Below, one piece after another: positions 1,581 to 35,651 of a stretch of 39,910 nt of DNA (positions are counted from its first letter, which is position 1; each line of letters opens with the position of its first letter). Below the pieces are notes generated by a model. It had not been told where the DNA came from. It ran no database searches and was given only the letters and a program-made list of their open reading frames with translations. The DNA lies in IMG/VR virus record IMGVR_UViG_3300048822_000012, positions 1 to 39,910 of that record. The stretch is one strand, 5' to 3'. A program made the translations under genes and the position numbers. The DNA is from a virus.

Positions 1581-2744
1581 ATGCCAGCCCCATTTCCCGC
1601 GTCTTTAATGCCCACTAGGCCGAATGCCATCGTTCGGGATTCTCGCGCATATTGCTATCAGTGTCACGTTAGACCGGACGGAGACGATAATACGTTAATG
1701 TCAGTCTACCATGATGACTCGCTATTGCTAGTTTGTGGCGACTGTCGCGATAATAATTACACTTATTGCGAGCCGGAAGACTGCTACGCGTCGCCCGCGC
1801 GTCCGGTAATAGACGCGTTAGGCATGTCGAGTGAAGACTATTATAGCCTGGGATGGCTACGCAGTAATTGTGTATATGATTCAGCGGTAGATGAATGGTT
1901 CGTTAATGAGGAAGCGAGGAACGCATACTTCGGGCGACAGCGCGGGACAGTGTACAGGTATCATGAGACTAATCCGATATCTGCGCATGGTTGGCCAAGC
2001 GTGACGCAACAGCATGAACTATGCTTTGGCGTCGAACTTGAGATGGAACATAAACGTAATGTTGATAGCACGGGCCAACAGGAGTTGGCTATGGCGCTTG
2101 GCGGCAGGATGGGCGGACTGCCTGATGTAGCAGGCAATTACATTCTCGCGGCAGACGGATCGCTGAATGCGTCTGGCGTCGAGTTGATTACTTGCCCATA
2201 CACGCTCGACTATCATCAAAAGCAGTTTGGATGGGATACGCTGTTAGCCAAGGTCGCCACCATCGGCAGATCGGGCAAGAATACGCAAGCGTGCGGAATG
2301 CACGTTCACTGCAATCGAGCGGCCATTAGTGCGCTGACACTCGGCAAAATGCTCGTGTTTGCGAATACTCCCGACAATAAACTTTTGCTGACGCATGTTG
2401 CGCAGCGACCCGATAACCGCTATACGCAACGCGCGCCTAAGCGTTTTGTCGATGGCAAGGTATCGACGACGCAGAAGTATGACGCGCTGCACGTCACACA
2501 AAGCACAATCGAATTTCGTATCTTTCGCGGCAATCTGCGTCCTGAGCGTGTACTCAAGAATATAGAATTCTGTCACGCACTGATAACGTATTGCCAACAG
2601 GCAGGCATTAAAGCCTGTTTAAACCATGCCGATTTCGCAGTGTGGCTAGGAAAGAACCGAGGCAATTACAAGCATCTCGTGGCTTTCCTAGCTCCCTTAT
2701 TTGGCTATAAACTGACACGTAACGACGTCACCGAGGATCAATAG
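1581..2744 (+). CDS. Amidoligase-like protein (glutamine-synthetase-like COOH-NH2 ligase) with N-terminal Cys-rich domain
   Basis: 387 aa. Residues of the GS-like amidoligase fold are visible in order: FGVELEMEH (Glu-x-Glu, metal/ATP site) near residue 150, GMHVHC (His-x-His) near 235, and TIEFRIFRGNLR near 315. This is the pattern of the phage/bacterial putative amidoligase family (Pfam Amidoligase_2 type). These enzymes are predicted to join an amino group to a carboxylate using ATP. The first 75 residues hold two CxxC pairs (CYQC, CGDC) and further cysteines, suggesting a zinc-binding domain. SD-like GGAG lies at 1569. It is followed 2 nt later by a class II glutamine amidotransferase, the usual ammonia supplier, so the two probably act together. 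The substrate is unknown. Confidence 0.75.
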   Translation: MPAPFPASLMPTRPNAIVRDSRAYCYQCHVRPDGDDNTLMSVYHDDSLLLVCGDCRDNNYTYCEPEDCYASPARPVIDALGMSSEDYYSLGWLRSNCVYDSAVDEWFVNEEARNAYFGRQRGTVYRYHETNPISAHGWPSVTQQHELCFGVELEMEHKRNVDSTGQQELAMALGGRMGGLPDVAGNYILAADGSLNASGVELITCPYTLDYHQKQFGWDTLLAKVATIGRSGKNTQACGMHVHCNRAAISALTLGKMLVFANTPDNKLLLTHVAQRPDNRYTQRAPKRFVDGKVSTTQKYDALHVTQSTIEFRIFRGNLRPERVLKNIEFCHALITYCQQAGIKACLNHADFAVWLGKNRGNYKHLVAFLAPLFGYKLTRNDVTEDQ

Positions 2745-2746
2745 AC

Positions 2747-3790
2747 ATGTGCCTGATTGCATACGTACCGGAAGGTAAGCGACTTCCGCCCGAAAACTTT
2801 TTAGCCGCGCATGAGCGCAATCCTGACGGCATTGGAATAATGTCCGTCGATGGAGTGCAAAAGTTCCTAGGACGCAAGGCAGCAAAGCGGGCGAAAAAGT
2901 ACATCGACCAATTGCAGGACGATAACGTCGCCTATGCCATTCACTTCCGCTATGCGACGCATGGAGACATTACGCTGCGTAACTGCCATCCGTTCGAGTT
3001 ACCTAATGGTAACGGATGGCTAATGCACAATGGCGTGCTCCGTGACTATACCGACTTGGCTACGCGGCTAGACAGTGACACGGCAATCTTTGCGCGGGAG
3101 CACGTTGATGCAGCCGCATCCGGCACCGATACCTGGAAAGATTATTGGTCCGCCATAGGCCAGAAGATTGACCGGAATAAGCTAGTCATCATGCTACCGT
3201 CCGGCTTCTTCATTATCGTGAATGGCAGCTATGGCACATATCGCGATGATATCTGGTATAGCCAGACGTATAGCCTACCCTGGCCAAGGTCAGATTTTGA
3301 GTATGGCGGAGCGAATCGTCCGTACAACGGTTCCTATAATTGGCTTCGCCAGTATGATGCGAGACGCGAAGAAAAGCCTTCGTTGCCTATACCGTGGGAT
3401 GCGCCTACTGCGCCATACAGGACGCTAACGGAAAGTCTTGAGCGGCACTATCCCATGGAGCGCAGTGAGCCGCTCGAAGCGGATAAGTTGCTAGACAAGG
3501 AATTGCTGGAAGCCTTCAAGGGGACCAATTGCATTAGCTGCTATCGTGCCGATATCCCCATCGATAAAGATGGCATCTGCGCCGATTGTCTGTATACGGA
3601 CGCTAAACAGGAAGATAGCGGACTGTTGCCTGGTTGGTCGGCTGTTACGGAACCGGGTGAGAAGGCAGCGATTGCCAAGCATAAGGATCGCTGCGTCGAT
3701 TGCGAGGCAAGCGTAGAGGCGGGCGAATGGTATTGCGGACACGCCTACTGCGTCGGCAAAGGCTACGAGATGGCGGGAGAAGGCAAATGA
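2747..3790 (+). CDS. Class II glutamine amidotransferase (Ntn-hydrolase) with C-terminal zinc ribbons
   Basis: 347 aa. It begins MCLIAYV, so removal of Met exposes the N-terminal nucleophilic Cys of class II GATases. Further family marks are RNPDGIGI, HFRYATHGD, NCHPF, LMHNGVL and SDTAIF, all within the first 120 residues. The C-terminal third adds CISCYR...CADC and CVDCEA...CGHAYC, two apparent zinc ribbons not usual for the family. The enzyme should release ammonia from glutamine. The amidoligase encoded immediately upstream is the likely acceptor partner. The stop TGA overlaps the next gene's ATG (ATGATGA), so translation is coupled. Confidence 0.85.
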   Translation: MCLIAYVPEGKRLPPENFLAAHERNPDGIGIMSVDGVQKFLGRKAAKRAKKYIDQLQDDNVAYAIHFRYATHGDITLRNCHPFELPNGNGWLMHNGVLRDYTDLATRLDSDTAIFAREHVDAAASGTDTWKDYWSAIGQKIDRNKLVIMLPSGFFIIVNGSYGTYRDDIWYSQTYSLPWPRSDFEYGGANRPYNGSYNWLRQYDARREEKPSLPIPWDAPTAPYRTLTESLERHYPMERSEPLEADKLLDKELLEAFKGTNCISCYRADIPIDKDGICADCLYTDAKQEDSGLLPGWSAVTEPGEKAAIAKHKDRCVDCEASVEAGEWYCGHAYCVGKGYEMAGEGK

Positions 3791-4068
3791 TGACGCTAGA
3801 CCAATGCAGGTTAGGGCAGCGAGTACGCGTAGAGCGTTACGGAACCGGCACCATAACCAGTTTGACGGACACGTTAAACATTACTAATAGCGGTATTATC
3901 GAGGTTATGCTAGATAGCGGTCATCGCGGAACGGGATCTAGGTACGCATGGCGCACGTTGCCCTCTCACTGTACGTTGCTTGCCGAGCAATCTGCCAACG
4001 CGACGCAGATATATCATCCGCCCCGCCGATATGGTCCGTATCGACCTATTGCTAAGGCATTGCCATGA
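3787..4068 (+). CDS. Small SH3-like protein with C-terminal RRYGPYRPIAKALP motif
   Basis: 93 residues, starting at ATG 3787 (or 3790), overlapping the amidotransferase stop. The body (LGQRVRVERYGTGTITSLTD ... GIIEVMLDSGHRG) looks like a small SH3/KOW-type beta barrel. The last 14 residues, RRYGPYRPIAKALP, recur almost unchanged at the C termini of the products at 4193-4444 and 4620-4892. Because the tail is more conserved than the bodies, it may be a recognition or attachment tag. Its adjacency to amidoligase and amidotransferase makes it a candidate substrate; that is inference. Confidence 0.75.
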   Translation: MMTLDQCRLGQRVRVERYGTGTITSLTDTLNITNSGIIEVMLDSGHRGTGSRYAWRTLPSHCTLLAEQSANATQIYHPPRRYGPYRPIAKALP

Positions 4069-4196
4069 AATTACTTGTCCACATCGCGCTAGACTTAGCG
4101 ATAGGCTTTGCGTGCGGGTTTGTGTGCGTGCTGTTCGCAATAATCATTGCGGCAATCATCGATTGCCGATCATGCTTAGGAGGGAAGGGGCCATGA
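4065..4196 (+). CDS. Small single-span membrane protein, 43 aa
   Basis: ATG 4065 overlaps the upstream stop (ATGA) and its own stop overlaps the next start at 4193. It is thus placed in the coupled operon exactly as its neighbours are. The product has one strong hydrophobic segment (LAIGFACGFVCVLFAIIIAAII) followed by CRSCLGGKG. The RBS AGGAGGGA of the next gene lies inside its 3' end. Function is unknown; a membrane anchor or small inner-membrane regulator is possible. Confidence 0.65.
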   Translation: MKLLVHIALDLAIGFACGFVCVLFAIIIAAIIDCRSCLGGKGP

Positions 4197-4444
4197 ATTT
4201 TGTCCCACTACAGCTATATATTCGCAATGAATACGATCTACAGATTATACGTGAATACACGCGACTGCGCCCAGTAATCGGCGAATCCGCAATCGTTACA
4301 AGCGAAGACTATACCGCTGCAGGCACCATGAAAGAAACGTTTTGGCTTTGGATGACGACAAATGCCGGAGGTGTTCCCGCCGTGCCTGGCGAGATTCGTA
4401 GATATGGCCCGTTTAAACCCATCCCTAGGAGACTGCCAGCATGA
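4193..4444 (+). CDS. Small hypothetical protein with C-terminal RRYGPFKPIPRRLPA motif
   Basis: 83 residues from ATG 4193, preceded by a strong AGGAGGGA. The body (NFVPLQLYIRNEYDLQIIREYTRLRP) is not similar to the flanking SH3-like proteins, yet the C terminus RRYGPFKPIPRRLPA matches the tail of the products of 3787-4068 and 4620-4892. One of the GTTTAAAC sites (4411-4418) encodes the FK of the tail. The stop overlaps the next ATG. A tail shared across different bodies argues for a role of the tail itself. Confidence 0.75.
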   Translation: MNFVPLQLYIRNEYDLQIIREYTRLRPVIGESAIVTSEDYTAAGTMKETFWLWMTTNAGGVPAVPGEIRRYGPFKPIPRRLPA

Positions 4445-4623
4445 GCGGCAAGAGACCGGCAAGAAAAGTGATAGCGGAAGCGATTAAAGCGCTTAAGAAG
4501 GATTCTGTGCGGGTATCTCCCGAAACACATACCTACCTAGCGGGGAAGCTAGCAGCGGCGCTTAAATCCGCTTACCCTTCGTCGTTTGACGTAGAAGCAT
4601 TCTTACGGGAGTGTGGCGTATGA
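4441..4623 (+). CDS. Small basic hypothetical protein, 60 aa
   Basis: This is a lysine/arginine-rich N terminus (KRPARKVIAEAIKALKKDSV) followed by a helix-like segment (VSPETHTYLAGKLAAALKSAYP). It overlaps both neighbours by ATGA junctions, so it belongs to the same translationally coupled string. The basic helical look would allow nucleic acid binding, but no known motif is present. It lacks the RRYGP tail carried by the products on either side. Confidence 0.7.
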   Translation: MSGKRPARKVIAEAIKALKKDSVRVSPETHTYLAGKLAAALKSAYPSSFDVEAFLRECGV

Positions 4624-4892
4624 CGATACAGATAGGCGACGTAGTAAACACAAATTACGACTGGGGATGTGGTGATTCCGGGATAGGAACTGTGATAGGT
4701 ATCGAAAGCACATTACGATTAGTCTATGTCCGCATGGACAGCGGACGCTGTGATCGGATATATATGGGGATTAGCGTCGGCGCTTTTCACGCTGCGAACA
4801 TGACGCTACTCCAGCGGGGCGGGAGCGCGACGTTTGTGCGACCGATACGCCGATACGGACCATATAAACCGATAGCCAAGGCATTACCCTAA
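4620..4892 (+). CDS. Small SH3-like protein with C-terminal RRYGPYKPIAKALP motif
   Basis: 90 residues. It begins MTIQIGDVVNTNYDWG and has GIGTVIGIEST...VYVRMDSG, a small SH3/KOW-like barrel resembling the product at 3787-4068. Its last 14 residues RRYGPYKPIAKALP are nearly identical to that protein's tail. The start overlaps the upstream stop (ATGA), and the TAA overlaps the next ATG (TAATG). The two SH3-like copies may be an old duplication, but the intervening 4193-4444 product shares only the tail. Confidence 0.75.
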   Translation: MTIQIGDVVNTNYDWGCGDSGIGTVIGIESTLRLVYVRMDSGRCDRIYMGISVGAFHAANMTLLQRGGSATFVRPIRRYGPYKPIAKALP

Positions 4893-5443
4893 TGAATACG
4901 TTTAAACAGTTTGCGGAAGGCACGATAAAGGCATCTCCCATTCTAACGGAGGCGGAGATTGAAGCGTTCATAGCATCTGGGGATACTGATCCGTTATACC
5001 GCTACGCCTATCGGATAGCGGGTTTTGTCTGTATCTATTGCAGGACACGCGCGCCTATTGGCGTAGACGATACGGACTGGCAAGACGCTGTGCAGGAATG
5101 TATGACTCGGTTCCCTTCGATACTCAAGACGTACAAAAAGTCTGAAGCGCCATTCTTGCGGTACATGACGCGAGCATTCCAGTCGATCATCATCAAGTAC
5201 CTTTGGTCAGTGGTTAAGGGCGGGACTGGTTCAGGGGAAACTGAGGCGCAAGCATCTGGCTATCTTGACCGGTCATACGGTGACTGGGGACTGCTAGACA
5301 ATGACGGTTTCCTGATAGCGCGGCAATCGACGGCATTCGGGACACGAGACCCCATCATAGAATTGATGGCAGAAGAAGCCGTTATTGCTGCGCTGCGCTA
5401 CGCCGAGGAACATCCGAAACGCGGACCAAAGAGGGAATGGTAA
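4892..5443 (+). CDS. Sigma-factor region 2-like protein (putative)
   Basis: 183 aa. The segment DPLYRYAYRIAGFVCIYCRT, then DDTDWQDAVQECMTRFPSIL...SEAPFLRYMTRAFQSIIIKYLW, follows the layout of sigma-70 region 2: paired helices, an acidic 'D..Q.....' helix, then an aromatic/basic helix. The C terminus (PIIELMAEEAVIAALRYAEEHPKRGPKREW) is too short for a standard region 4. The phage encodes no RNA polymerase in this window, so a sigma-like protein that redirects host polymerase is plausible. It is the last strongly coupled gene of the amidoligase operon (TAATG junction). Similarity is by eye and weak; another helical DNA-binding role is possible. Confidence 0.45.
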   Translation: MNTFKQFAEGTIKASPILTEAEIEAFIASGDTDPLYRYAYRIAGFVCIYCRTRAPIGVDDTDWQDAVQECMTRFPSILKTYKKSEAPFLRYMTRAFQSIIIKYLWSVVKGGTGSGETEAQASGYLDRSYGDWGLLDNDGFLIARQSTAFGTRDPIIELMAEEAVIAALRYAEEHPKRGPKREW

Positions 5444-10820: not shown

Positions 10821-11422
10821 CTACCTATCAAGGGTTCGTAAGCAAGATTATCACCAAAGAGGGTACATCCTCGCGAGGCCGTAGATGGCAGAGTTGGGCC
10901 GCACGGCTAGAGAAAGAGGATGGTACCGAATATCCTGAGTGGATCAGCTTTGGGTTCGAGAAACCTTCGGTCAAAGAGGGCGATTACGTCAAAATCGAGA
11001 CAGCGAAAGATGACAAGGGCTACCAGAAAGTCGTCAGTGCGACGACGCTCAAGAATCCTCCGGCTAAGGCCGCGAATCAGCCGCAGAGCGCTGGAGCGGT
11101 TCCGCCGAGCCCTGGAATCCCCAATACTTATGTGAGCACCCGCGACACCAGCATTCAATACCAGTCGTCCCGTAAGGATGCTATCGCGGTTCTGGAGTTG
11201 CTTATCTCCAAGGATGCGCTGCCGCTGACTGGAGCCAAGACGAAGGCGGGGGAGCAGGCCCGGTATGAGGAAATCTCCGCGCTTGTCGATAAGCTGACCG
11301 TGCGCTTTTACAACGATGTGGCCACCATGCGCGTGCTGGACAAGGTAGAAGACGAAGGCGCAGAAACCGAGGAGACTGCTAATGCTGCTGTGGAAACGGA
11401 AGAGCAAGACGACCCCGCCTAA
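10817..11422 (+). CDS. Probable single-stranded DNA-binding protein
   Basis: 201 aa, overlapping the polymerase stop (ATGA). The first 80 residues (YQGFVSKIITKEG...WQSWAARLEKEDGTEYPEWI...VKEGDYVKIETAKD) read like an OB fold. A linker and a helical part follow. The C terminus is strongly acidic (EDEGAETEETANAAVETEEQ, then DDPA), typical of SSB tails that contact replication partners. Position directly after the polymerase supports this. No specific SSB family signature is certain. Confidence 0.55.
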   Translation: MTTYQGFVSKIITKEGTSSRGRRWQSWAARLEKEDGTEYPEWISFGFEKPSVKEGDYVKIETAKDDKGYQKVVSATTLKNPPAKAANQPQSAGAVPPSPGIPNTYVSTRDTSIQYQSSRKDAIAVLELLISKDALPLTGAKTKAGEQARYEEISALVDKLTVRFYNDVATMRVLDKVEDEGAETEETANAAVETEEQDDPA

Positions 11423-11684
11423 GATGCCGATGTACGGATTCGATTCGGCGCTGCTGCCGTTCACCGAATCCAAGGATTTCCAGATAGTCAGTATTGCGGT
11501 GGCGGATCAGCGGATATACGGTGTGCTGAACAAGATTACGGGGCATGTCGAGATGATGTTTGGGCAGTTATCGCAAGCAGTCATCCAAATGCAGACGGCT
11601 CAGCAAACGTTTGACCGTGTTAAGACGGGGGAAGCGAACGGTTATAGCGATTATGGTACAAACATCCACACTTCTCAGGGCTGA
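11382..11684 (+). CDS. Hypothetical protein, 100 aa
   Basis: The start ATG 11382 has GAGGAG at 11369-11374 with 7-nt spacing, so a 41-base overlap with the SSB-like gene is likely. ATG 11424 is a later option. The product (FTESKDFQIVSIAVADQRIY GVLN then EMMFGQLSQAVIQMQTAQQ) has a beta-rich first half and a helical second half. No family recognised. Confidence 0.6.
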   Translation: MLLWKRKSKTTPPKMPMYGFDSALLPFTESKDFQIVSIAVADQRIYGVLNKITGHVEMMFGQLSQAVIQMQTAQQTFDRVKTGEANGYSDYGTNIHTSQG

Positions 11685-11690
11685 ATCGTC

Positions 11691-12626
11691 GTGCATCTAA
11701 TCATAGACGCCGATCCGATCTGCTATCGCGCGGGTTTTGCCGCAGAAAGCGCATCCTATCACCTGGTCATGGAAGACCCTGTGAGCGGGATATACGAAGT
11801 ACTGTTTGAGCCGTATGATGGCAAGACAGCGGGCGCTAGGATGCAGAAATGGATTTCTGACCATCCAGACGATGTTGTGCTTGATAAAACAAAGCAGGTA
11901 ACGGCAGAGCCCGAGGAAAACGCGCTGGAAGCAACGCGAACGCAAGTCTATTCAATCGAGAAAGAGTGCGCGGAGCACTTCGGATTGCACGAGTTTTCGC
12001 AAATAACGATCATTCTTAGCGGACCAGGTAACTATCGTGAAAAGCTGGCGACCATCTTTCCGTACAAGGGGAACCGCGATCCGGCGCACAAGCCCGTATG
12101 GTACCAAAGCATACGCAATTATCTGACGAGTCAGTGGGGAGCCGCGGTCGTACATGGGCGGGAAGCAGACGACGAATGCAGCATACTTGCCCATGCCTCA
12201 GAGCCCGGATCATATATAATTGCGACGATAGACAAGGACTTGGATCAGATTCCTGGTCATCATTTTAACTACATGAAGAGTGTATTCCATGCCCAATCCG
12301 AACAGTCTGCTTATAACTTCTTTGTTCGACAGGCGTTATCAGGGGATGCCACTGACGGCATACCGGGATGCTATAAACTGGGCGCAATCCGCGCAGCCCG
12401 TATTGCCGATGACCTCGCGGGATTATCTAGGGCAGATACCTGGACCGGAATTGTCGCTGCTTACGAGGAGAGCAAGCGTCGCGCCAACTGTCCGTACATG
12501 GACCGTGAAGCCGAAGCCGTTGCCTTAGAGACAGCCCGCTTAGTGTATTTGCAGCAGAAGGAAGGGGAGTTGTGGATACCCACTGGACCGCCTCACGACT
12601 TGTTACCGGAGTACCGCGATGAATGA
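11691..12626 (+). CDS. 5'-3' exonuclease (FEN/T7 gp6-like)
   Basis: 311 aa, GTG start. Acidic metal-binding motifs of the FEN superfamily are present in order: IIDADPICYR near the N terminus, GREADDECSILA near residue 155, TIDKDLDQIPG near 177, and GDATDGIPG near 218 (the helix-hairpin-type turn). The enzyme removes RNA primers and degrades host DNA in T7-like systems. Its place within the replication module fits. Confidence 0.85.
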   Translation: MHLIIDADPICYRAGFAAESASYHLVMEDPVSGIYEVLFEPYDGKTAGARMQKWISDHPDDVVLDKTKQVTAEPEENALEATRTQVYSIEKECAEHFGLHEFSQITIILSGPGNYREKLATIFPYKGNRDPAHKPVWYQSIRNYLTSQWGAAVVHGREADDECSILAHASEPGSYIIATIDKDLDQIPGHHFNYMKSVFHAQSEQSAYNFFVRQALSGDATDGIPGCYKLGAIRAARIADDLAGLSRADTWTGIVAAYEESKRRANCPYMDREAEAVALETARLVYLQQKEGELWIPTGPPHDLLPEYRDE

Positions 12627-17127: not shown

Positions 17128-17600
17128 GCTGCTATCTCTCCTAAAACGTAGGTTTTGTATTTGAACTTGAAAATGGATTCTACGGCTTGTCCGTCTGGCG
17201 TATTGTAGTATTGCTTGTAGTATCGCCAGATCGCATCGAGATCAGTTGCCGGAGGCAGTACGCCAGGGCAACGCTCGTAGTGAATCCGAGCCATAGCAAT
17301 ACTATAGCGATCATTATTGATAAGATCGTCGCTAGTACCGATTGTATCATAATTTAGACTCTTGACTAGATTTCCGAGCATTACGTGATACGAAAGGTAA
17401 TTGTTCCAGATATCATTAAAGTCGCTCGTTTCAATCTGGAATATCCCCTTGCCAGGGCCACCCTTGGCCTGCACCCTGTACCTGCCAAGATTACTCTCGT
17501 TGGCACAGGTAGCCATAAGCAACTCTTCCGCATCCACACTGTACAGGTTAATCACACCTAGTACATCTTGGATAAGTGATCGCAGTGCAGCCGGTTCCAT
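17124..17600 (-). CDS. Lytic transglycosylase-like (lysozyme fold) protein
   Basis: 158 aa. LLMATCANESNLGRYRVQAK GGPGKGIFQIET is the E-S-x-x-G ... G(I/L)xQ(I/L) signature of SLT/goose-lysozyme-like enzymes, with Glu34 in NESNLG as the likely catalytic acid. It could be the endolysin, or a virion-associated muramidase that opens the wall during DNA entry. Its place next to internal virion genes favours the latter, and proximity to the holin the former. No signal peptide seen. Confidence 0.65.
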   Translation of the reverse strand: MEPAALRSLIQDVLGVINLYSVDAEELLMATCANESNLGRYRVQAKGGPGKGIFQIETSDFNDIWNNYLSYHVMLGNLVKSLNYDTIGTSDDLINNDRYSIAMARIHYERCPGVLPPATDLDAIWRYYKQYYNTPDGQAVESIFKFKYKTYVLGEIAA

Positions 17601-18550
17601 TACGGTATCGGCGTGCTGCGTCTGCCGAGCATCCCATTAACAATCTTGCCGATGGCCGTCCATTTGATAGACTGATTAAGGATGTTAGCGGCTGCCGGAT
17701 GTGCCTCCATGAATTTAAACGTACCGACAGCAGCCGAATACAGCCCAGACGCGGCTGCCCTGCCTGCGGCTACCCCTCCTAGCCCGACTAGGGCAATCTC
17801 CGCATTGGCCTTGTCATTAAGCTGCTTACCCATTGTATACGTAGCCGGAGGGTTATAATTCCCATTACCGTCTATGTATTGACCCTTGTCTATGATCCGC
17901 GCCTGGATGTTGGCATTGAAATACTGATCCGCTTTCTTCTGTTCCGCAAACTGCGGATTAGTGGATGCCAGATAATCATCTACGCTATCCTGCGTACCCC
18001 GCCCCAGACCGCCTGTGCCTGCGTATATGCCGTTCATGAAGTGGCCTATGCCCGATGCCTTGTACCACGCCTGGACCGCTCCTAAGCCCTTAGGATCGGT
18101 TACATCGTCATAGTGCTTGGACATGCCCTCCCAGTAGCTATCTGGCAGCTTGGATACGTCTATTCCGCCAGCAGTAGCCGCCTCTTTAAGCGTCTCCGGG
18201 TCATGATCCGCCAGGAAGAACTCGTGCGGATCTAGGTAGGCTGCGGGCTTCTTGTCCTGGCTATCCTGGGTGGGGGGCGTCTGGGCCGGAGGCGACGAAA
18301 CATTGGAGAAATCCGGCTCGGGCAGTCCCCTGCGACGTCTTGACGCCGCTCCTGGGTCATCCGCCTGGGTGTCCAGCGCTACCGTATCGTAATACTTGCC
18401 GTCTGGCCCCATGCCACCCATCTGTTGCCACAGACGCGCATCCGTAGCGTTTAGCTCCGGTACCTGTTGGATATCTCTAGCGCCCTTCGGAACGCCCGCT
18501 GCGATCATGTCCGGGGTTCGGTTATCCGGTGCGTCGTCATCATTGGCCAT
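17600..18550 (-). CDS. Internal virion / ejection protein (putative), 316 aa
   Basis: The start ATG 18550 (MANDDDAPDNRTPDM) overlaps the upstream stop by 11 nt; a longer frame upstream is a shadow. The N-terminal half is polar and Pro/Asp-rich. The C-terminal third has an Ala/Gly-rich hydrophobic stretch (IALVGLGGVAAGRAAASGLY SAAVG). It lies between a long helical protein and a transglycosylase, the usual neighbourhood of DNA-ejection proteins. No specific family recognised. Confidence 0.5.
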   Translation of the reverse strand: MANDDDAPDNRTPDMIAAGVPKGARDIQQVPELNATDARLWQQMGGMGPDGKYYDTVALDTQADDPGAASRRRRGLPEPDFSNVSSPPAQTPPTQDSQDKKPAAYLDPHEFFLADHDPETLKEAATAGGIDVSKLPDSYWEGMSKHYDDVTDPKGLGAVQAWYKASGIGHFMNGIYAGTGGLGRGTQDSVDDYLASTNPQFAEQKKADQYFNANIQARIIDKGQYIDGNGNYNPPATYTMGKQLNDKANAEIALVGLGGVAAGRAAASGLYSAAVGTFKFMEAHPAAANILNQSIKWTAIGKIVNGMLGRRSTPIP

Positions 18551-20222
18551 ACAGTGCCCGTTGCAGTTTCTGGTGAGCCGCGTCCATATCCGCGTTATAA
18601 TCTGCTGGAGGGGGCGGAGCGCCATAAAGCGCCCGCTGTAGTTTATCGTGCGCTGCGTCCATATCCTGGTTCCACTGCACATTAGGGGTTAAAGTGGACC
18701 CTGGATCAGCGTGCGCTCCGTTGTCTGATAACCGCCTGCCGCCGCCAAACACGGCACGGGCGGGTACGCCGTTCTTGTCCTTGACCAGCGGCGGTGATTG
18801 CAGGTTGCCTAATGCTTGCGCCCGTCCATCACTGCCCGCCGACGCAACATTATATTTCTGGGCGTATTGTTTAAACGTAAGATTAGGATTGCTTTCCGTT
18901 TGGCGCGCAAATGAGATGACGGCCTGCGGAGTCCACGGCACAGCCTCACGCATGGCTTGCAACTTGGCGTTGATAGCCTCTGCCTTGCCTGGGTCAATAG
19001 CCTTGGACTTCAGGTAAACGTCACTGCCCGTCTCAAATATCTGCCGGGCCTCTGCTAGTTTGCTGAGCATGGTCAGATACGTATCAGTCGGCTGCATCGT
19101 CAGCGTATCTTTAAGGTTGCTCATCAACGCGCCGCTTGCCCCTTGCAGTCCTCCGCCCGATTCAATCGTGGCGAGCGTGCGGAACAGCGGCTGCGTCATT
19201 GTCCGGTATAGCTGTACATCCTGGGGCTGTAAACTGTTATACAGTTGCTCTTTGGTCATCTCTGTCAGCGTAGCTGCCGGTTTGGTTGCCATACCGAAAA
19301 AGCCTTTTGAGCTACCCATAGGCAGACTAGCCACATTCGCTAGACTTGTAGAACCAATGTCCGTAGCAGTCAGGATGCGATCAGTAAAGCGATCACCGGC
19401 CACATTACCTCCTTTAGCCGCCGCTTCTGCGGCTGCCTGTTCACGTGCTGCCGCTGCATTCTCTGATGCCTTGATACGCGCATTAGCCTGGGCAATTGCA
19501 GACGCCAGCTTGCTGTTATTAAGCTGATCGGCATTGACCACTTGAAGCTGCTTGCCGTTCTGTGCGCCTTCGGCCATGTCCGCATGTATCTGCGCAGGTG
19601 TACTCGGATCAGTCAGGTCATACGCTTTGACCTGTCGTAGCCCCATAGGAATCTGGTTTTCATCTTTCCCCTGGTCTTCCGCCAGGAAGACTTGCCGTGG
19701 AGTGTTCTGATCCAGGGTATCCTTGAACTGGGATTCTTTAAGGTTCTCGGCCTCCTGCTGCAATCGCTGATTGCCCAGATCCAGTGCCTGTTGCCGGGCA
19801 GCCAACTCTAACGGTTGACTCTGTTGCAGGAATGCCTGCTGCTTCTGCGCTTGGGCTAGCCGTACCGCTTGATCTTGCGCGCGAAGCGCTATCTGCGGGG
19901 CAACCCCAATCATTCCTTGACTAATGGCCTTGGCTGTCCGTAGCTGCTTAGCCAAAGGGTCTTCGTCTGGATCGGCATTATCGTTGACGCTTGACAGGAT
20001 GCTTTGCATCTGTTGTTGCACACGTTTGGCCTGCTGGACTTGTGGTGAGCCGCCAAACAGGTTCTGCGTACTGTACAGGCCAGCCGAGATAACGCGATTA
20101 GTGGCGCTAGGATTCTGCTGCGAGCGGGCGTAAGCCGCCGCTTCCTGCCCTTGCAGGTCACTAGGGTCTTCGATACCGTAGGTATCGTCGCCCTCTAGGT
20201 ACGATTGTGATTGATTAGGCAT
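18540..20222 (-). CDS. Internal virion protein (putative), 560 aa, with C-terminal tandem repeat
   Basis: A long helical, Gln/Ala-rich protein (for example VRLAQAQKQQAFLQQSQPLE LAARQQALDLGNQRLQQEAE). Its central part is coiled-coil-like, and the N-terminal region is disordered. The C terminus carries two copies of a short unit, MDAAHDKLQRALYG and MDAAHQKLQRALYG, separated by a Pro-rich linker. It starts one base from the 778-aa gene. Such proteins in podoviruses form the ejection core. Assignment is from context. Confidence 0.5.
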   Translation of the reverse strand: MPNQSQSYLEGDDTYGIEDPSDLQGQEAAAYARSQQNPSATNRVISAGLYSTQNLFGGSPQVQQAKRVQQQMQSILSSVNDNADPDEDPLAKQLRTAKAISQGMIGVAPQIALRAQDQAVRLAQAQKQQAFLQQSQPLELAARQQALDLGNQRLQQEAENLKESQFKDTLDQNTPRQVFLAEDQGKDENQIPMGLRQVKAYDLTDPSTPAQIHADMAEGAQNGKQLQVVNADQLNNSKLASAIAQANARIKASENAAAAREQAAAEAAAKGGNVAGDRFTDRILTATDIGSTSLANVASLPMGSSKGFFGMATKPAATLTEMTKEQLYNSLQPQDVQLYRTMTQPLFRTLATIESGGGLQGASGALMSNLKDTLTMQPTDTYLTMLSKLAEARQIFETGSDVYLKSKAIDPGKAEAINAKLQAMREAVPWTPQAVISFARQTESNPNLTFKQYAQKYNVASAGSDGRAQALGNLQSPPLVKDKNGVPARAVFGGGRRLSDNGAHADPGSTLTPNVQWNQDMDAAHDKLQRALYGAPPPPADYNADMDAAHQKLQRALYGQ

Positions 20223-22558
20223 TAGCCGAAGAAACTCCCCAGGTCAAGATCGCCTGCATCCCCCGCCCCAAAATCGAGGCCCCCGCCGAAATCCGTTACG
20301 CCTGTGTTGCCTAGACCCATACCAGAATTGCTGATATCAAAGCCGCTCGTATCTATGCCATTACCGTAATTGGATTGGTTAACCGCACCAGACATGTTGG
20401 ATTGCGTTCCCGCATTAAGGCCACCATTCTGCGAATTGTATTGGTTGTAATTGCCGTTGCCTAACGACGTGCCGCTAAACGGATTGGAGTTGGCACCAGC
20501 GCCCAATAGACTGCTTAGGCCCCCATTCCCACTTAGACCGCCGAGCAGACTGGACAAGTATCCAGTTGTCCCGCCGCCATACGTGTTGGCGATAGCGCCT
20601 TGCGTCTTGGCCGCAGCATTCATCTGGTTGCCGATATTGGTCACACCAGTCTGTGCGCCCGCTGCCGTCTGCAACGCCTGCGTATTGATGTTACCCACAC
20701 CAGCAACGGCATTGTTGGCGTTCTGCTGATACGCTCCGGTAAGCGCCGGGCTATACATCCCCAAGTTCATCCCGGCTTGAAAGTTCTGGCCACCCAGATT
20801 GGCATTCTGGCTATTGAAGTTACCAAGCTGGTTAGCGCCCTGCGCATAGGCATTGGTACCGAGACTGCCGAACAAGCTGGTAACGTTGTTACCCTGCCCG
20901 GACTGCTGAGCCCCCAGATTGCTCTGCGTGTTGATAGCGCCGAGTCCCTGGTTATAGGCGGACAACCCCAGGTTGCCGCTCGTGTTCATTGCCGCCAGCC
21001 CCTGCGATACTGCATTCTGCTGTACCTGTAGGTCTGCCGTGTTAAAGCTGTTCTGTAGGGCCTGTGCGTTGAGCGCCCCGCCACTGGTCCCCGCCTGCCC
21101 CCGTTCAAAGTTGCTATTAAGCAAGGCATTGGATTGCTGCTGGATAGCGGGGTTGAGCGCCTTGAGCCCCGCGTTTAAACTGGTATTGTACGCCTGGTTG
21201 TAATTGCTTCCTGCCTGGTTAAATAGTTGCGCCCCGGCAGACATAAGCGGCTGCCCCGCAGCATTGGCTCCCAGTAACGTATTCTGGCCAGCATTGCGAA
21301 GCGTATTGCCTGCTCCCTGCGCCTGTCCAAACAGATTCGCTCCGGCATTCTGCATCCCTAGACCGGCATTGATGCCCTGTGTGGCATTCCCCTGCCCGGC
21401 TTGAAGACTGTTGATGTAATTGTTGTAGCCCGATGATACCTGGCCAGGAACAGCCCCGCCCGCATACATACCGGCTGCATTAAGGCTCTGCCCACCCACT
21501 CCGGCATATTGCCCGGCCATGCCCCCCAGGATACCACCAGACAAGTTAAGCTGGCCGTTATTGAACGTGCCGCCTTGTCCCCCTATCCCCGTAGCGCCCC
21601 ATGTATTCCCTGAGTTTGCGGCATTACCGGCAGTCGTGTATGCATTTTGCTGCATACTGCCAATCTTGCTGCTTGTCATGCCGCCAAGGATAGTAGAGCC
21701 GATACCGGCTCCTGCGCCAAGCAAATTGCCAAGCGTAGTGCCGCTACCGCTGCTGTTTCCAGACCCGAACAGGTTGCCGAGACTTGACGTAAGGCCCTGC
21801 CCGGCATTAGATGTAGTTCCTGCCGGGCTGGCCCCCATGAAGGCTCCAGGGCTGGTCAACCCCATCCCCGTTCCCCCGTTACTATAGCTGTCTACTGGCA
21901 CAGTTCCGCCTTGTGTTGGGGAGCCATTCAAGGCCCCCCCTATTAGATTAGTTCCGATCTTAGATCCGGCATTTGCCACGCCTTGGCTGGCCCCTAGCCC
22001 CTGTGGCCCTAGACCATAGCTTATACCGCCCGCAGCGCCTCCCAGAAGGGCTCCCTCGCCTACCCCCTTGGCTGTGACGTCCCCTTGCAGTGCGCCGCTT
22101 GCAAGCCCTCCTACGGCCCCTGCGCCTGCTCCCTGCGCTACCGCTCCAACCGCGCCCATATCCGCCGCGCTTATCCCTGCATCGGCCAGTGCGCCCCCTG
22201 CTGCACCCCCGAGCGCCCCTACTACCAGTCCCAGGGCTATCTTGTCCCCTAGGTTATTTTGATCTTGTTCGAACTGGTAGCCGTTGTAGGCGGACACAAG
22301 ATTGGTCCCTGCCAAGGCCCCTGCGTTGCCCCCACCTGCCATGGCGGCTAGGTCATTAGCATTGCCCCCAGACTGGGTAAATGCTTGGCTACCATAGAAG
22401 CCGTTTGGTACGTACCAGGGATTAGCTCCATTCTGGTCGTTGACCATGTTCTGGCCAAGCTGCCCACCAACAGATCTCGTATCATCCCCGCCGTCGCGGG
22501 CAAGCTGCTGGTTTATGGCCGCTTGTGTGTCATTCGGATCTTGAACAGTTACAGCCAT
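20222..22558 (-). CDS. Gly/Asn/Ala-rich internal virion protein (putative), 778 aa
   Basis: Residues about 105-210 are a long Gly/Ala-rich hydrophobic tract (ALGLVVGALGGAAGGALADA and following) resembling membrane-active segments of ejection proteins. The rest is a repetitive sequence of N, Q, G and A (NAGAGL, GNNYNQAYNTSLNAGL-like units). It contains one GTTTAAAC (21173-21180). The gene sits before two other putative internal proteins. A role in forming a DNA conduit through the envelope is inferred. Confidence 0.5.
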   Translation of the reverse strand: MAVTVQDPNDTQAAINQQLARDGGDDTRSVGGQLGQNMVNDQNGANPWYVPNGFYGSQAFTQSGGNANDLAAMAGGGNAGALAGTNLVSAYNGYQFEQDQNNLGDKIALGLVVGALGGAAGGALADAGISAADMGAVGAVAQGAGAGAVGGLASGALQGDVTAKGVGEGALLGGAAGGISYGLGPQGLGASQGVANAGSKIGTNLIGGALNGSPTQGGTVPVDSYSNGGTGMGLTSPGAFMGASPAGTTSNAGQGLTSSLGNLFGSGNSSGSGTTLGNLLGAGAGIGSTILGGMTSSKIGSMQQNAYTTAGNAANSGNTWGATGIGGQGGTFNNGQLNLSGGILGGMAGQYAGVGGQSLNAAGMYAGGAVPGQVSSGYNNYINSLQAGQGNATQGINAGLGMQNAGANLFGQAQGAGNTLRNAGQNTLLGANAAGQPLMSAGAQLFNQAGSNYNQAYNTSLNAGLKALNPAIQQQSNALLNSNFERGQAGTSGGALNAQALQNSFNTADLQVQQNAVSQGLAAMNTSGNLGLSAYNQGLGAINTQSNLGAQQSGQGNNVTSLFGSLGTNAYAQGANQLGNFNSQNANLGGQNFQAGMNLGMYSPALTGAYQQNANNAVAGVGNINTQALQTAAGAQTGVTNIGNQMNAAAKTQGAIANTYGGGTTGYLSSLLGGLSGNGGLSSLLGAGANSNPFSGTSLGNGNYNQYNSQNGGLNAGTQSNMSGAVNQSNYGNGIDTSGFDISNSGMGLGNTGVTDFGGGLDFGAGDAGDLDLGSFFG

Positions 22559-22593
22559 AACGATAGGGGGCCTTAGACGGGGGAGAGGGACCG

Positions 22594-22619
22594 GCTAGGC
22601 CCCTACCGGACAGCCTAGC
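22594..22619 (-). terminator. Hairpin overlapping a TAG stop (GCTAGGC/GCCTAGC)
   Basis: GCTAGGC and GCCTAGC (minus strand, 22613-22619 and 22594-22600) form a 7-bp stem with a 12-nt loop, overlapping the TAG of the 22615 gene. A pyrimidine-rich stretch follows. It uses the same hexamer as the stem at 16792-16812. Confidence 0.4.
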
Positions 22620-22806
22620 TGTCAGACTTTGAACTCTTCTTCTTAAACATGAAATAGATGGATACACCAGCGCCGACTGCCGTCAGAAGGCTGGCCAATC
22701 CATGCAGGAATGCATCATACGTGGCAATCTCGCTGATTATATATGTTACCACTGTACCCAATATCCCCGCCGCGCCTACGCGCTGGTTGTGTGCTGCCGT
22801 TATCAT
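22615..22806 (-). CDS. Small two-span membrane protein, possible second holin, 63 aa
   Basis: It has two hydrophobic segments (AAGILGTVVTYIISEIA and LASLLTAVGAGVSIYFMF) and a basic tail KKKSSKSD, typical of small class II holins. The start overlaps the upstream stop (ATGA). A 3TM holin is encoded at 16362, so this may be an antiholin, a second holin or a virion membrane protein. Confidence 0.55.
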   Translation of the reverse strand: MITAAHNQRVGAAGILGTVVTYIISEIATYDAFLHGLASLLTAVGAGVSIYFMFKKKSSKSDS

Positions 22807-23678
22807 GCAATGCGCTCAACTGTGAATGTGCTGCCCGCCAATAATTGACTGGCCGTTGCGTTAGAGGTAAACTGCGCCCAGGCAATGGCCACCGTACCCG
22901 TACCGGATGCGACAAGGACGGCATCTATGGTCACGCCAACGTTCGATATTGCGCCAGAAATACCCAAGCCAGAGGAGTTGACGGTGGCATTGACAGCCTG
23001 GCCTAAGCCAGATGCGCCGCCGCCAACATACGTCGCCATGCTATTCGTCTGCGTACCGGAATAGTTGACGTTGATATTGATTCCACCGGCACCTGTGGTA
23101 ATACCGAGCACAGCCTTGAGCCGGTACGTTCCCGCCGACGGAACTGCATATTGCATGGTCGCATCGTTGGTCAGCGTCGTCGTGCTCGTCCGTGTACTGG
23201 CACTTGTCAGGTTCTTGACAATCACCGAACCAAAGCCAGAGGCGACACCATTGACTTGATATGTGCCGGAGATGTTTATATTGCCAATGCCGGGGTCTCC
23301 GCCCGTAGGCGTACCGAGTGTAACTCCGCCATCCCCGTAAACCTCAAGGTAAGGCGTTACCCCCCCGCTGGCACGGATCAATAGGGCGCGATCCGTGTTA
23401 TTGGTACCTGCCGTAACGATCAGACCGTAAGAGCCGCCTGTTGCGCTGTTACCGACGATAGCCAGGGCATTGCTGCCGTTACCGCCATTGACGGTCAGGG
23501 TAGTGCCCGTGCCGTAGGTCATCGTAAACGGCCCGGCGTATCCCCCTGCCAGGTTATCGAACTTGCTGGCTATGGCCGTGGCTATAGCCCCGTATTCCAG
23601 ATCGTATGCTGCGCCGTTGATAACGGCGTTAACAGCGGTCAAAGCGGTGAAGTTGGTACTTTTGGTATAATTCGACAT
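22803..23678 (-). CDS. Tail fibre-like / virion surface protein, 291 aa
   Basis: It begins with an N-terminal segment typical of phage fibre proteins (YTKSTNFTALTAVNAVINGA AYDLEYGAIATAIASKFDN). Beta-rich repeats (GTGTTLTVNGGNGSNALAIV) and a C-terminal beta domain ending STFTVERIA follow. It probably forms a trimeric appendage. It is separated by 2 nt from the stabilisation-type protein upstream in the operon. Confidence 0.55.
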   Translation of the reverse strand: MSNYTKSTNFTALTAVNAVINGAAYDLEYGAIATAIASKFDNLAGGYAGPFTMTYGTGTTLTVNGGNGSNALAIVGNSATGGSYGLIVTAGTNNTDRALLIRASGGVTPYLEVYGDGGVTLGTPTGGDPGIGNINISGTYQVNGVASGFGSVIVKNLTSASTRTSTTTLTNDATMQYAVPSAGTYRLKAVLGITTGAGGININVNYSGTQTNSMATYVGGGASGLGQAVNATVNSSGLGISGAISNVGVTIDAVLVASGTGTVAIAWAQFTSNATASQLLAGSTFTVERIA

Positions 23679-23680
23679 TG

Positions 23681-25282
23681 TTATGCTACTCGGCCAATTT
23701 TCGCCGCAAATTGGGCCTGCTGGAGGGCAAATATCCCAGATACGGCATTGCTAACGGTTAGCTGGAAGTACTGGCCTTTCATGTGCGCCGGATATTTGTA
23801 TAGGTATATATTAGCGTTCAAAGCGACCCCATACTCGGCTATGCCGTATAATCCGATACCGTACTGGCCGGGCTGCGTGAATGTCGGTGTAAGCTGAACT
23901 GTCTGGTTCGCTTGCGAACCGAAGTCCACACCCCATCCCATTGTGAACGTATTGGCACCAGAGCAGGATAGAATCAACTCAAGTCGCTTAAGCAGCTTGT
24001 AATGCTGCGCCACTTGCTGGCCTAGCGTCATCCAGGGGGATATGTACGTAAAGGTATATACCGTGCCCTCGTCCGTAAATCCAGCCGCCGTATAGTTGCA
24101 AAGGGTTCCCTGGTTAGCCCGCGCAATGTACAGGTTCTGTGCTTGCTGTTTGCTTGAATATGCCGCCGTGACCGCTATCGTCCACGTCGTCATGATACTG
24201 CACTGGGCCTGGACGTCATCCAGATACAGCCTGCGCATATCCATGCACCAGACTGTGTTATTGACCGGCAGACACAGGATATAGAATCCTGTCAGGTTGT
24301 TGTAGACGCCAGTAATGTTAGCCAGCGTCTCCGTCGTTATCTGCGTGAGCAGCGTATCCCGATTGTATTTTGATAGCGTTTCAACTGGGTTATTCCGGCT
24401 GGTCGTCAATCGTTGAAGCGATTGGACGCCTTGCGGCCCCAAGAATACTACGTCAGTTTCTCCGATGAAATCGACTGTCCATTGGCTGATGCAGCCGGTA
24501 CCCAGGATTTCATCAAATACGTAAGCCTGAGTAGGGTCCAGCCCAAGCATCGAGCCACGACCATCTGTGAAGAATACGATGTGCTTAGTACCGCACACAA
24601 CGAGGCTAGCGTTCCACGCGAATATCGCGGTAACTTGGTCAGTTCCGTTTGACCAAATAGTATGCATGTCAATAATGCCAGCGTTGCCGTCAGTCGTAGA
24701 CCAATCTGTTTCATCTAACAATCCGCTGTACTGAATGGTCTGAAGATCGGTCTGAACCGCCCAAACTCGTCCAAAAGCTGCACAACCTATGCCCCCAGAT
24801 GGGGCCGTACCAGCGCTTTCAACAACTGTTGCAAAGGTACCTGTACCTGTGTACACAATGGGCTTCTTGCCAGTCTGGAAACCAATGCACTTGTTGTTAA
24901 AGTTCTGAAAGTACCAACGGCCATTGGTTACGTTAACCGCCCCGCCCAGGTTGTTTGTGGGGGCAGAAACTACATTACCGATGCCGCCGTTCCAGGCAAG
25001 GATTGTCTGAAAGCCGGTCGTGGCCCCCCCGTTGTACTCAAAAGCACTAAGTATACTGGGGGTGCCTGAGATGGGCGTAGTGGTGACAGAGGTTGCCCCG
25101 TAGCGAGCGGCCAATCTGCCGGATATGTCAATGACTGCATTATTCGCCTCAAAGCAGTAACTAGGGTCCATCAGCGTCCCAGACAGAACCGTGTTGACGC
25201 CACGAAAGCCCGGAGAGACGAAATCCAGCGGCTGAATGTCCTGTTGCGAAGACGGGATTGTAGCCAGCCGCTTGAATGTCAT
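23681..25282 (-). CDS. Tail stabilisation / tail-tubular B-like protein, 533 aa
   Basis: The opening DFVSPGFRGVNTVLSGTLMD PSYCFEANNAVIDISGRLAA RYGA is characteristic of podoviral tail nozzle/stabilisation proteins (P22 gp10-like): a statement that the surface is assembled from 'N..v.....G.L..R.G'. Later beta-propeller-like segments follow (RVWAVQTDLQTIQYS, LVVCGTKHIVFFTDGRG). It follows the adaptor gene by one base. It should sit below the portal at the tail. Confidence 0.65.
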   Translation of the reverse strand: MTFKRLATIPSSQQDIQPLDFVSPGFRGVNTVLSGTLMDPSYCFEANNAVIDISGRLAARYGATSVTTTPISGTPSILSAFEYNGGATTGFQTILAWNGGIGNVVSAPTNNLGGAVNVTNGRWYFQNFNNKCIGFQTGKKPIVYTGTGTFATVVESAGTAPSGGIGCAAFGRVWAVQTDLQTIQYSGLLDETDWSTTDGNAGIIDMHTIWSNGTDQVTAIFAWNASLVVCGTKHIVFFTDGRGSMLGLDPTQAYVFDEILGTGCISQWTVDFIGETDVVFLGPQGVQSLQRLTTSRNNPVETLSKYNRDTLLTQITTETLANITGVYNNLTGFYILCLPVNNTVWCMDMRRLYLDDVQAQCSIMTTWTIAVTAAYSSKQQAQNLYIARANQGTLCNYTAAGFTDEGTVYTFTYISPWMTLGQQVAQHYKLLKRLELILSCSGANTFTMGWGVDFGSQANQTVQLTPTFTQPGQYGIGLYGIAEYGVALNANIYLYKYPAHMKGQYFQLTVSNAVSGIFALQQAQFAAKIGRVA

Positions 25283-25283
25283 A

Positions 25284-26345
25284 TTACGCTGCGATCATTA
25301 CAAGATCGCCCTGCAATGCAATATCTTTGGATATCAGATCATCCAGCGCGCTGCGATACTTATCCTCGGAAAACATGTCGTTTACGCCGAGGCTTTCTCC
25401 GCGCTCTGATAGCGCGTACCAGGCAGCGCCAAGTTCGATAGGCCGCGAATCCATCAGGATCGGACTATCTGCCCCCATGCCCCCGGACAGAAAGCCCTGG
25501 ACAACGACAATAGCTGAAAAGCTTGTGTTATTTATCGCCGCGCTGAATGCCGTCACCGCTGTTGACCCGTTGGTAAACGTTGCCGTGATCGTCTGGTTTA
25601 CTACGCCAGTCCCTAGGGTAACTGGGTTCGGCCCAGTGAATATTACCGTGTACGTCCCTGAAGGGTATTGCCACGGGATGTTTAGTGTGCCACTGGTTGC
25701 GCCAATTGTCGGGGGCGCATTGAAGCTTATATTCGTGACTCCAGTATTCCATATATCCGTCTGGTTGCCAACTCCGTTGGTCGGGTCAATGTACTGCTGT
25801 GGGTTATACAGGGTAATCTGGATGTTCCGCGTCGTATTAGCGCCCGGATACATCAATAGCTCAACGTCGTCGTTGCCCCTGTCCTGAACGACGAAGTTGG
25901 TGCTGTAGGCCACTGGCGTCTGATTAAGCACCGTATTGTAATACAGCAAATCGGCAAACGGCATTTCATCTAGGACAAAGGGAATACCGAATGTAGTGAT
26001 ATCAAAGCACAGCGCAACTTCTCGCCCCATCTTTGGATTGTGCTGCCGTACCACCTGGCATCCGCTATAGGGAAAAGCCCCTGCGGGTAGGAAGTAGCCG
26101 CCAATATCATAGATTTGCTGGAAATTGTTTCCAGATATGTAACCCATCGTGAAGGTTTGCCATCGTCTGGACCATTGGTGTTCTTGTTCACACTCTTCCT
26201 TGACGTGGTTGATGAAATTACATAGCTGTAGCTGGTAGCCGTCCGTAATGGGATTGCCCACGGCAGGAACCTGCGCAGCAAGCAGCGGCTCGCCTATATT
26301 CGTCAGCGTCCGCACAAGCATCTGGCGCAGGGTCAGCGTAGCCAT
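25284..26345 (-). CDS. Head-tail adaptor / tail-tubular A-like protein, with inserted beta domain, 353 aa
   Basis: The N-terminal 80 residues (LTLRQMLVRTLTNIGE ... QLCNFINHVKEECEQEHQWS RRW) and the C-terminal helices (PIELGAAWYALSERGESLGV NDMFSEDKYRSALDDLISKD) match the podoviral adaptor fold. Between them, around residues 190-275, is a Thr/Asn-rich beta region (NISFNAPPTIGATSGTLNIP ... TITATFTNGSTAVTAF) that looks like an added Ig-like domain. It connects portal and tail nozzle. Confidence 0.6.
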   Translation of the reverse strand: MATLTLRQMLVRTLTNIGEPLLAAQVPAVGNPITDGYQLQLCNFINHVKEECEQEHQWSRRWQTFTMGYISGNNFQQIYDIGGYFLPAGAFPYSGCQVVRQHNPKMGREVALCFDITTFGIPFVLDEMPFADLLYYNTVLNQTPVAYSTNFVVQDRGNDDVELLMYPGANTTRNIQITLYNPQQYIDPTNGVGNQTDIWNTGVTNISFNAPPTIGATSGTLNIPWQYPSGTYTVIFTGPNPVTLGTGVVNQTITATFTNGSTAVTAFSAAINNTSFSAIVVVQGFLSGGMGADSPILMDSRPIELGAAWYALSERGESLGVNDMFSEDKYRSALDDLISKDIALQGDLVMIAA

Positions 26346-34581: not shown

Positions 34582-34935
34582 TTAGAACGCTGTCGGTAAT
34601 GCGCGATTAGCTATGATGATGTAATTGGCAGATGTTGGCGTAATTGTGCTGCCCGAGCAGTTGGCAAACGATATGATACAGGTACCGGCTGTAGACGTCG
34701 GCTGAGCCGACACAAGGCAACCTGCTATCGGTGCGGCCCCCACTGGTACAATGACCTTGAGCAAGTCCCCAATGACGAAGGCGGCCTTGTTAGCGCTATA
34801 TACGCTACCGATAACGCAGGCGACTGTGACCGAGGCAACGCTGCCCGTGGTTATTGCGCCGGGGGATACAGAGGGGGCAAAGCTGACTTCGTAATATTCA
34901 TCCACGCCGCCGCTAAATTGTCTTGTTTGAAACAT
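34582..34935 (-). CDS. Tandem paralogue 3 of an MFQ-type beta protein, 117 aa
   Basis: It starts MFQTRQF and carries VSPGAITTGSVASVTVACVI ... FVIGDLLKVIVPVGAAPIAG CLVSAQPTSTAGTCIISFAN CSGSTITPTSANYIIIANR. The order 'GD.l.vi...g...g.iv.A.P...g...i...N..g..itP....y.i...R' recurs in the products at 34943 and 35301. The three are likely capsid decoration or small virion surface proteins made by duplication. Confidence 0.7.
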   Translation of the reverse strand: MFQTRQFSGGVDEYYEVSFAPSVSPGAITTGSVASVTVACVIGSVYSANKAAFVIGDLLKVIVPVGAAPIAGCLVSAQPTSTAGTCIISFANCSGSTITPTSANYIIIANRALPTAF

Positions 34936-34942
34936 GGTGATC

Positions 34943-35299
34943 CTAGGTGACGTTAGCCGCTATGCGCGAGGCAACTAGCGTCCACAGACCGGCTGAAGGC
35001 GTGACTGGCGTGCCGGTATTGCAATTCTTGACCGCAATCGTACATAGACCCGGCGTCCCCGGAACAGGAATAGCCTGCACAATTACTCCGCCGAGACTGC
35101 CTACGGCAGCGGACGGGAATAGTTCAAGGTAGTCCCCCGGAACGAATGATGCCGGGCCATTACCGCCCGCAGGGGAGCCCTGAAGGAACTGGACGTTTTG
35201 CGTAGCAATAGCCAGACCAGACGTAGAGCTAAGCGTAAACGTTGCATAACTCACTTCGACTAGCGTGAATATTTCATTTCGCATTCTAATTTGAAACAT
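34943..35299 (-). CDS. Tandem paralogue 2 of an MFQ-type beta protein, 118 aa
   Basis: ATG 35299 (MFQIRMRNEIFTLVEVSYAT) is chosen because it aligns with the starts of the two neighbours; the longer open frame upstream is a shadow. It shares FVPGDYLELF...GGVIVQAIPVPGTPG LCTIAVKNCNTGTPVTPSAG LWTLVASR with them. Only one base separates it from the preceding gene's stop. Confidence 0.7.
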   Translation of the reverse strand: MFQIRMRNEIFTLVEVSYATFTLSSTSGLAIATQNVQFLQGSPAGGNGPASFVPGDYLELFPSAAVGSLGGVIVQAIPVPGTPGLCTIAVKNCNTGTPVTPSAGLWTLVASRIAANVT

Positions 35300-35300
35300 A

Positions 35301-35651
35301 TCACAGCACCGTCGGCGTAAGCCGTTTGGACAAAATGATATAGGATACAATGCCGGGCACGATGGGACTGCCCGTAGTGTTATAGAACATGATTTCCACA
35401 CTGCCCGCCGCTACGGGTGTTGCCTGGACGATCAGGCCAGCAACCGATGCAGTGCCAAGCGTTGCAATGATATCGACCTGATCCCCCAACGTAACCTGAG
35501 CCGGGTCTGCCGTATCCGCATTTGCCCCGGTATACACGCTTAACGTAAGGTGCTGCACGTTGCCCGCGCTAACCGTTCCCGGGTTGCCGCTACTTGTAAA
35601 GCCCGTCTCTACAAGCTGGTATACGTCATTTAGCTGACGTTGCTGAAACAT
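35301..35651 (-). CDS. Tandem paralogue 1 of an MFQ-type beta protein, 116 aa
   Basis: ATG 35651 (MFQQRQLNDVYQLVETGFTS) aligns with both paralogues. The core VTLGDQVDIIATLGTASVAG LIVQATPVAAGSVEIMFYNT TGSPIVPGIVSYIILSKR has the same GD...A.P...N..G..P motif order. The three copies differ enough to have been retained for a long time, perhaps forming a heteromeric layer or trimers. Confidence 0.7.
   Translation of the reverse strand: MFQQRQLNDVYQLVETGFTSSGNPGTVSAGNVQHLTLSVYTGANADTADPAQVTLGDQVDIIATLGTASVAGLIVQATPVAAGSVEIMFYNTTGSPIVPGIVSYIILSKRLTPTVL

Follow-up and report, generated by a model that had tools for sequence, protein, structure and literature searches.

Three small proteins encoded near the left end of a podovirus-like genome end in a common C-terminal tail, which is constrained at the protein level, is carried by two kinds of body and is absent from relatives that encode the neighbouring enzymes as well. 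We propose that this tail is a lineage-specific C-terminal short linear motif which would dock the three proteins onto one common predicted partner, a reading to which we give a probability of about one half. Flexibility, docking and a single partner are the parts of it that we infer.

Gene chain and C-terminal tails

The window, i.e., the whole stretch of DNA analysed, is the 39,910-base virus record IMGVR_UViG_3300048822_000012, with a podovirus-like gene order (Table 1). The amidoligase and the glutamine amidotransferase (GATase) sit near the start of the early arm, and a chain of overlapping small genes follows directly, in which tail proteins 1, 2 and 3 alternate with a membrane peptide and a basic protein before the gene at 4892. 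The three tail proteins are presumably early. The original prediction had the tail genes translationally coupled downstream of the two enzymes; the chain of overlapping starts and stops agrees with this, whereas the tail genes are not direct neighbours, two small genes lying between them (4065-4196 and 4441-4623). Tail gene 1 was missed by a simple gene caller, and we argue from the overlapping start/stop chain and from its paralogy to gene 3 that it is probably genuine. No homologue of the 60-aa protein was found. In the late arm, six large proteins of up to 778 aa (17600-26345, strand -) were without a PHROG match at E 0.001.

Table 1. Position of the features discussed in the window.
Feature	Position	Strand	Remarks
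GS-like amidoligase (Amidoligase_2)	1581..2744	+	PF12224 match, motifs in 8-sequence alignment
Probable class II glutamine amidotransferase	2747..3790	+	N-terminal MCLI (Cys2), Cys pairs in C-terminal part; PF13522 25.1 bits, cut-off 27; homologues adjoin amidoligase
Tail protein 1	3787..4068	+	93 aa, SH3-like body plausible
Tail 1 RRYGPYRPIAKALP	4024..4065	+	AAGG precedes start of next gene (4065)
Hydrophobic (membrane) peptide	4065..4196	+	43 aa, without tail
Tail protein 2	4193..4444	+	83 aa, body without detectable kinship to proteins 1 and 3
Tail 2 RRYGPFKPIPRRLPA	4397..4441	+	AGGAG precedes start of next gene (4441)
Basic protein	4441..4623	+	60 aa, probably helical, without tail
Tail protein 3	4620..4892	+	90 aa, paralogue of protein 1
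Tail 3 RRYGPYKPIAKALP	4848..4889	+	AAGG precedes start of next gene (4892)
Conserved downstream gene	4892..5443	+	without family match; also in close relatives without tail genes
Primase	6072	+	early arm
DnaB-like helicase	7237	+	early arm
DNA polymerase	8919	+	early arm
Exonuclease	11691	+	early arm
Endonuclease	13204	+	early arm
Major head protein	27397	-	late arm
Portal	30776	-	late arm
Terminase	32987	-	late arm

All three predicted tails were confirmed at the C termini of the products of 3787-4068, 4193-4444 and 4620-4892. The core RRYGP[YF][RK]PI is followed by x[KR]xLP, and the last residues of tails 1, 2 and 3 are Pro, Ala and Pro, respectively. A tail profile run over all six frames of the window gave scores of 70, 69 and 66 at the three tails and 24 at the next-best place, with no fourth copy. 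Among 28,830 pairs of C termini encoded on the same strand of the window, the tail pairs scored 81, 67 and 57; the other pair in this range (63) came from a late-arm paralogue set, and the top remaining unrelated score was 42. In the late arm, three genes in tandem (34582-34935, 34943-35284 and 35301-35651, strand -), each encoding about 115 aa, look paralogous and have similar C termini, for example GSxIxPxxxxYIIxxxR, with a like set near 11401-12114 in another genome (G017).

Over 14 codons, tails 1 and 3 showed five identical codons, eight synonymous differences and one nonsynonymous difference, with 13 of 14 residues kept. This corresponded to a dN of 0.05 and a dS of 3.2 (NG86; 14 codons only, near saturation), compared with a dN of 0.90 and a dS of 1.41 over the 63 aligned codons of the bodies. 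The tail appeared more constrained at the protein level than its surroundings, an estimate which covers 14 codons of one good paralogue pair, among three copies in one genome. The presence of synonymous changes in the tail together with widely diverged bodies indicates that the peptide itself is under selection, and rules out DNA repetition or recent gene conversion.

Part of the conservation has another possible source in the DNA. Codons 11-12 read AAG GCA in tails 1 and 3 (identical) and AGG AGA in tail 2, and thereby provide AAGG or AGGAG, suitably spaced ahead of the start codon that follows. This Shine-Dalgarno-like sequence of the next gene may explain part of the conservation of the second half of the tail, but not that of RRYGP[YF][RK]PI. 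Where tail gene 1 ends (4045-4105, strand +), the RNA can form a 12-bp stem, CCUAUUGCUAAG with CUUAGCGAUAGG, which covers the Shine-Dalgarno-like sequence of the next gene; none was seen at tail 3.

Proteins 1 and 3 are paralogous, aligning at 35% over 82 aa with the tail counted in (E=3e-10). Protein 2 matches them through the tail only, and the predicted difference of the middle body stood up, with no detectable relation to bodies 1 and 3 outside the tail. The model of protein 3 showed five strands at low confidence (pLDDT 50), and its best Foldseek matches were the Tudor, NusG and Spt5 KOW barrels, with E-values of about 0.1-0.7. It is plausible from this model that bodies 1 and 3 are SH3-like barrels. 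The tail of protein 3 had a pLDDT of 34-44, in the low-confidence part of a model that is poor as a whole; a flexible peptide would be expected to score in this way.

The enzyme pair and the tail in other genomes

The assignment of the gene at 1581 to the GS-like amidoligases was borne out by a PF12224 score of 33.1 bits (cut-off 22). Residues E152, E154, D192, E201, H241, H243 and R313 were invariant in an alignment of eight sequences, as were the motifs ExE, DGS, CG-HVH and R-F. The GATase, just below the PF13522 cut-off, possesses Cys2 (MC N terminus) and HNG and matches PHROG amidotransferase families. The two genes stood side by side in nine of nine first-found relatives, none of which matched a profile of proteins 1 and 3. 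Among 80 related IMG/VR loci collected with the amidoligase profile, in which some of these nine recur, the GATase lay directly downstream of the amidoligase in at least 69, and several of the remaining 11 end before the GATase position. A tail or a homologue of a tail protein was present in none of the 80. The co-occurrence of tail and amidoligase that the original prediction proposed to check therefore came out negative, the enzyme pair being widespread and the tail absent beside it in these loci.

The gene at 4892 was present, downstream of the GATase, in 5 of the 80 loci (L037, L038 and L052, weakly in L041 and L048). In L004 and L052 a short hydrophobic peptide stands between the GATase and the 4892 homologue, and no tail gene is interposed. 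The tail genes of the window are inserted into this order of GATase, membrane peptide and conserved gene. The short hydrophobic peptide after the GATase was seen in L005 as well; no sequence homology was detected between the peptides of these three loci and the 43-aa peptide of the window.

An amidoligase/GATase pair belongs to a cassette of podoviruses such as RIO-1, LUZ24, PaP3, tf and phiEco32 (PMC5498523, PMC3890496, PMC10580990). It was proposed to modify peptidoglycan and to prevent superinfection (PMC5498523), and the peptidoglycan suggestion was repeated by other authors (PMC10580990). As in this cassette, an Amidoligase_2 protein and a probable class II GATase are encoded close together in the early arm of the window, with replication genes, their adjacency there being a feature of the cassette; unlike in the cassette, they are accompanied by tail proteins, which are not among its known members. 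Further members (COOH-NH2 ligase, ATP-grasp, gamma-glutamyl cyclotransferase) were not found among the early genes scanned, which included part of the small genes.

The tail is present in one genome only among the collections searched. Two tail pattern scans of IMG/VR gave zero matches. The single match of another pattern was rejected as an antisense chance match in a microvirus, and none of the five matches of a looser one was a tail at a gene end. In GTDB, five matches were obtained, none of the five at a C terminus. By tblastn against phages (E<=10) nothing was found for proteins 1 and 2, and three matches only for protein 3, all with E >=3; on reading, the best of them, in Rhizobium phage RHph_TM16, proved to be without such a tail. 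The degenerate patterns cover part of the possible tail variation only, and the collections may be without very near relatives of this virus, so that absence from them is not proof. A literature search on common C-terminal tails of small phage proteins found nothing.

A second tail family was observed in the 41,999-base genome IMGVR_UViG_3300021420_000010 (G008). Two small paralogues, L040:4658-4870 and L040:9285-9515, flank the amidoligase/GATase pair, one lying upstream of the amidoligase and the other downstream of the GATase; their C-terminal tails are ERWWTVDEAPLP and KRWWTVDEANLPG. This tail (RWWTVDEAxLP) differs in sequence from that of the window, and its two copies are separated by six synonymous and two amino-acid changes over 12 codons. 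The two proteins are related along their whole length and conserved at both ends. In IMG/VR this tail, too, turned up in that genome alone, one of the two copies by its codons. The second family suggests a recurrence of such tails, differing in sequence from case to case.

A tail pair in G017 (score 73) was rejected as a further example, one partner being an out-of-frame ORF inside the exonuclease gene. This ORF is also present in the window within the exonuclease gene (12280-12528, strand +) and ends in TRRASVAPTVRTWTVKPKPLP. Its G017 counterpart is similar to the C terminus of a different small gene in G017 at 39 of 72 nucleotides, the maximum over 2000 random stretches being 30 of 72. Nor did we keep the idea that a C-terminal LP is general in the group: a stricter motif matched only the three genes of the window and the G017 case, and LP ends occur here and there in other genes.

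Proposed docking motif and alternative explanations

Where different bodies carry the same constrained peptide at the C terminus, this usually marks a docking or addressing motif, and protein 2 resembles proteins 1 and 3 in the tail only. Short constrained C-terminal docking peptides on more than one protein are known from SSB tails and encapsulin cargo peptides; here too such a peptide is found on several proteins, the tails of the window being, to our knowledge, unlike either in their basic and aromatic character. In the model that we propose, an SH3-like tail gene would have been duplicated, and the tail would also have come onto an unrelated body. Selection would hold the tail while the bodies diverge. 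The flexible basic, aromatic and proline-containing tail would dock all three proteins on one partner, of the phage or of the host, and different bodies would thereby be delivered to the same place. A docking peptide for a common partner had been the alternative within the original prediction, and it best fits the constraint, the two kinds of body and the absence of the tail beside the enzymes in relatives.

Its preferred idea, that the two enzymes amidate or ligate the C-terminal carboxylate, with the tail as recognition or attachment site and an amidated or conjugated C terminus as product, found no support and appears very improbable. Peptide tagging of the Pup type uses a GS-like ligase, and such a ligase is encoded near the tails of the window; in the relatives, however, it comes without a free conserved tag, and the tail here is the end of several proteins. 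The physical neighbourhood, the overlapping genes and the intact motif residues of the enzyme speak for a substrate, but the pair is kept across loci without the tail, the relatives having no tail genes at the corresponding place, and therefore the tail cannot be a general substrate of the enzyme family; it may be one private to this phage. The tails end in Pro or Ala, so that they would not offer a constant carboxylate for modification. The G008 tail is different although the amidoligase of that genome is homologous to that of the window (39% identity), and for the cassette that includes the pair a role in peptidoglycan has been proposed (PMC5498523). It is a more serious possibility, if still an unlikely one, that the tail is the slow-evolving end of a duplicated family, aiding folding or stability without any common partner, and that protein 2 is a highly diverged or recombined member. 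The clear paralogy of proteins 1 and 3 agrees with this, as does the G008 pair, kin along its whole length with both ends conserved; against it, body 2 shows no detectable kinship with bodies 1 and 3, and a stretch of 14 residues that hardly changed while the bodies changed throughout would be unusual for a mere structural element.

The tail could also act as a nascent peptide, slowing the ribosome at the stop codon and thereby adjusting how the overlapping next gene is translated. From CutF (PMC9973294) it is known that a proline-rich C terminus can control a downstream gene; there, similarly, a small upstream protein has a Pro-containing C terminus, and at or close to the end of that protein lie the signals of the following gene. 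Pro-stop occurs in two of the three tails, which abut the stop, hold the next Shine-Dalgarno-like sequence and overlap the next start. We nevertheless find such a role improbable: the last residue of tail 2 is Ala, the RNA around the three tails does not fold consistently (z of -1.1, -3.1 and +1.3), in G008 one of the tail genes is without an overlapping next gene, and window genes without a tail have start/stop overlaps as well. The three tails thus show neither the fixed C-terminal residue nor the consistent downstream RNA structure of arrest peptides, and differ from the CutF type in the lack of a consistent stem-loop and in that no sign of a signal peptide was seen by eye. A degron or a C-terminal protection from proteases, giving the three proteins an equal lifetime, would suit the extreme C-terminal position and the LP near the end of the window and G008 tails; it is hardly probable, the constrained RRYGP part lying 10-14 residues from the end.

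The analysis sets the tail apart from the widespread amidoligase/GATase pair. A tail common to proteins of otherwise different sequence would give direct access to the partner that they have in common, and can be used as bait. More doubtfully, address tags at the C terminus, each specific to one genome (RRYGP[YF][RK]PI...LP here, RWWTVDEAxLP in G008) and borne by several small early proteins, might evolve again and again in phages of this group, and a set of different effectors would then be collected by a single receptor specific to the phage or the host. If the partner is a host protein, the tail would represent a phage-specific means of bringing several small effectors together at a single target.
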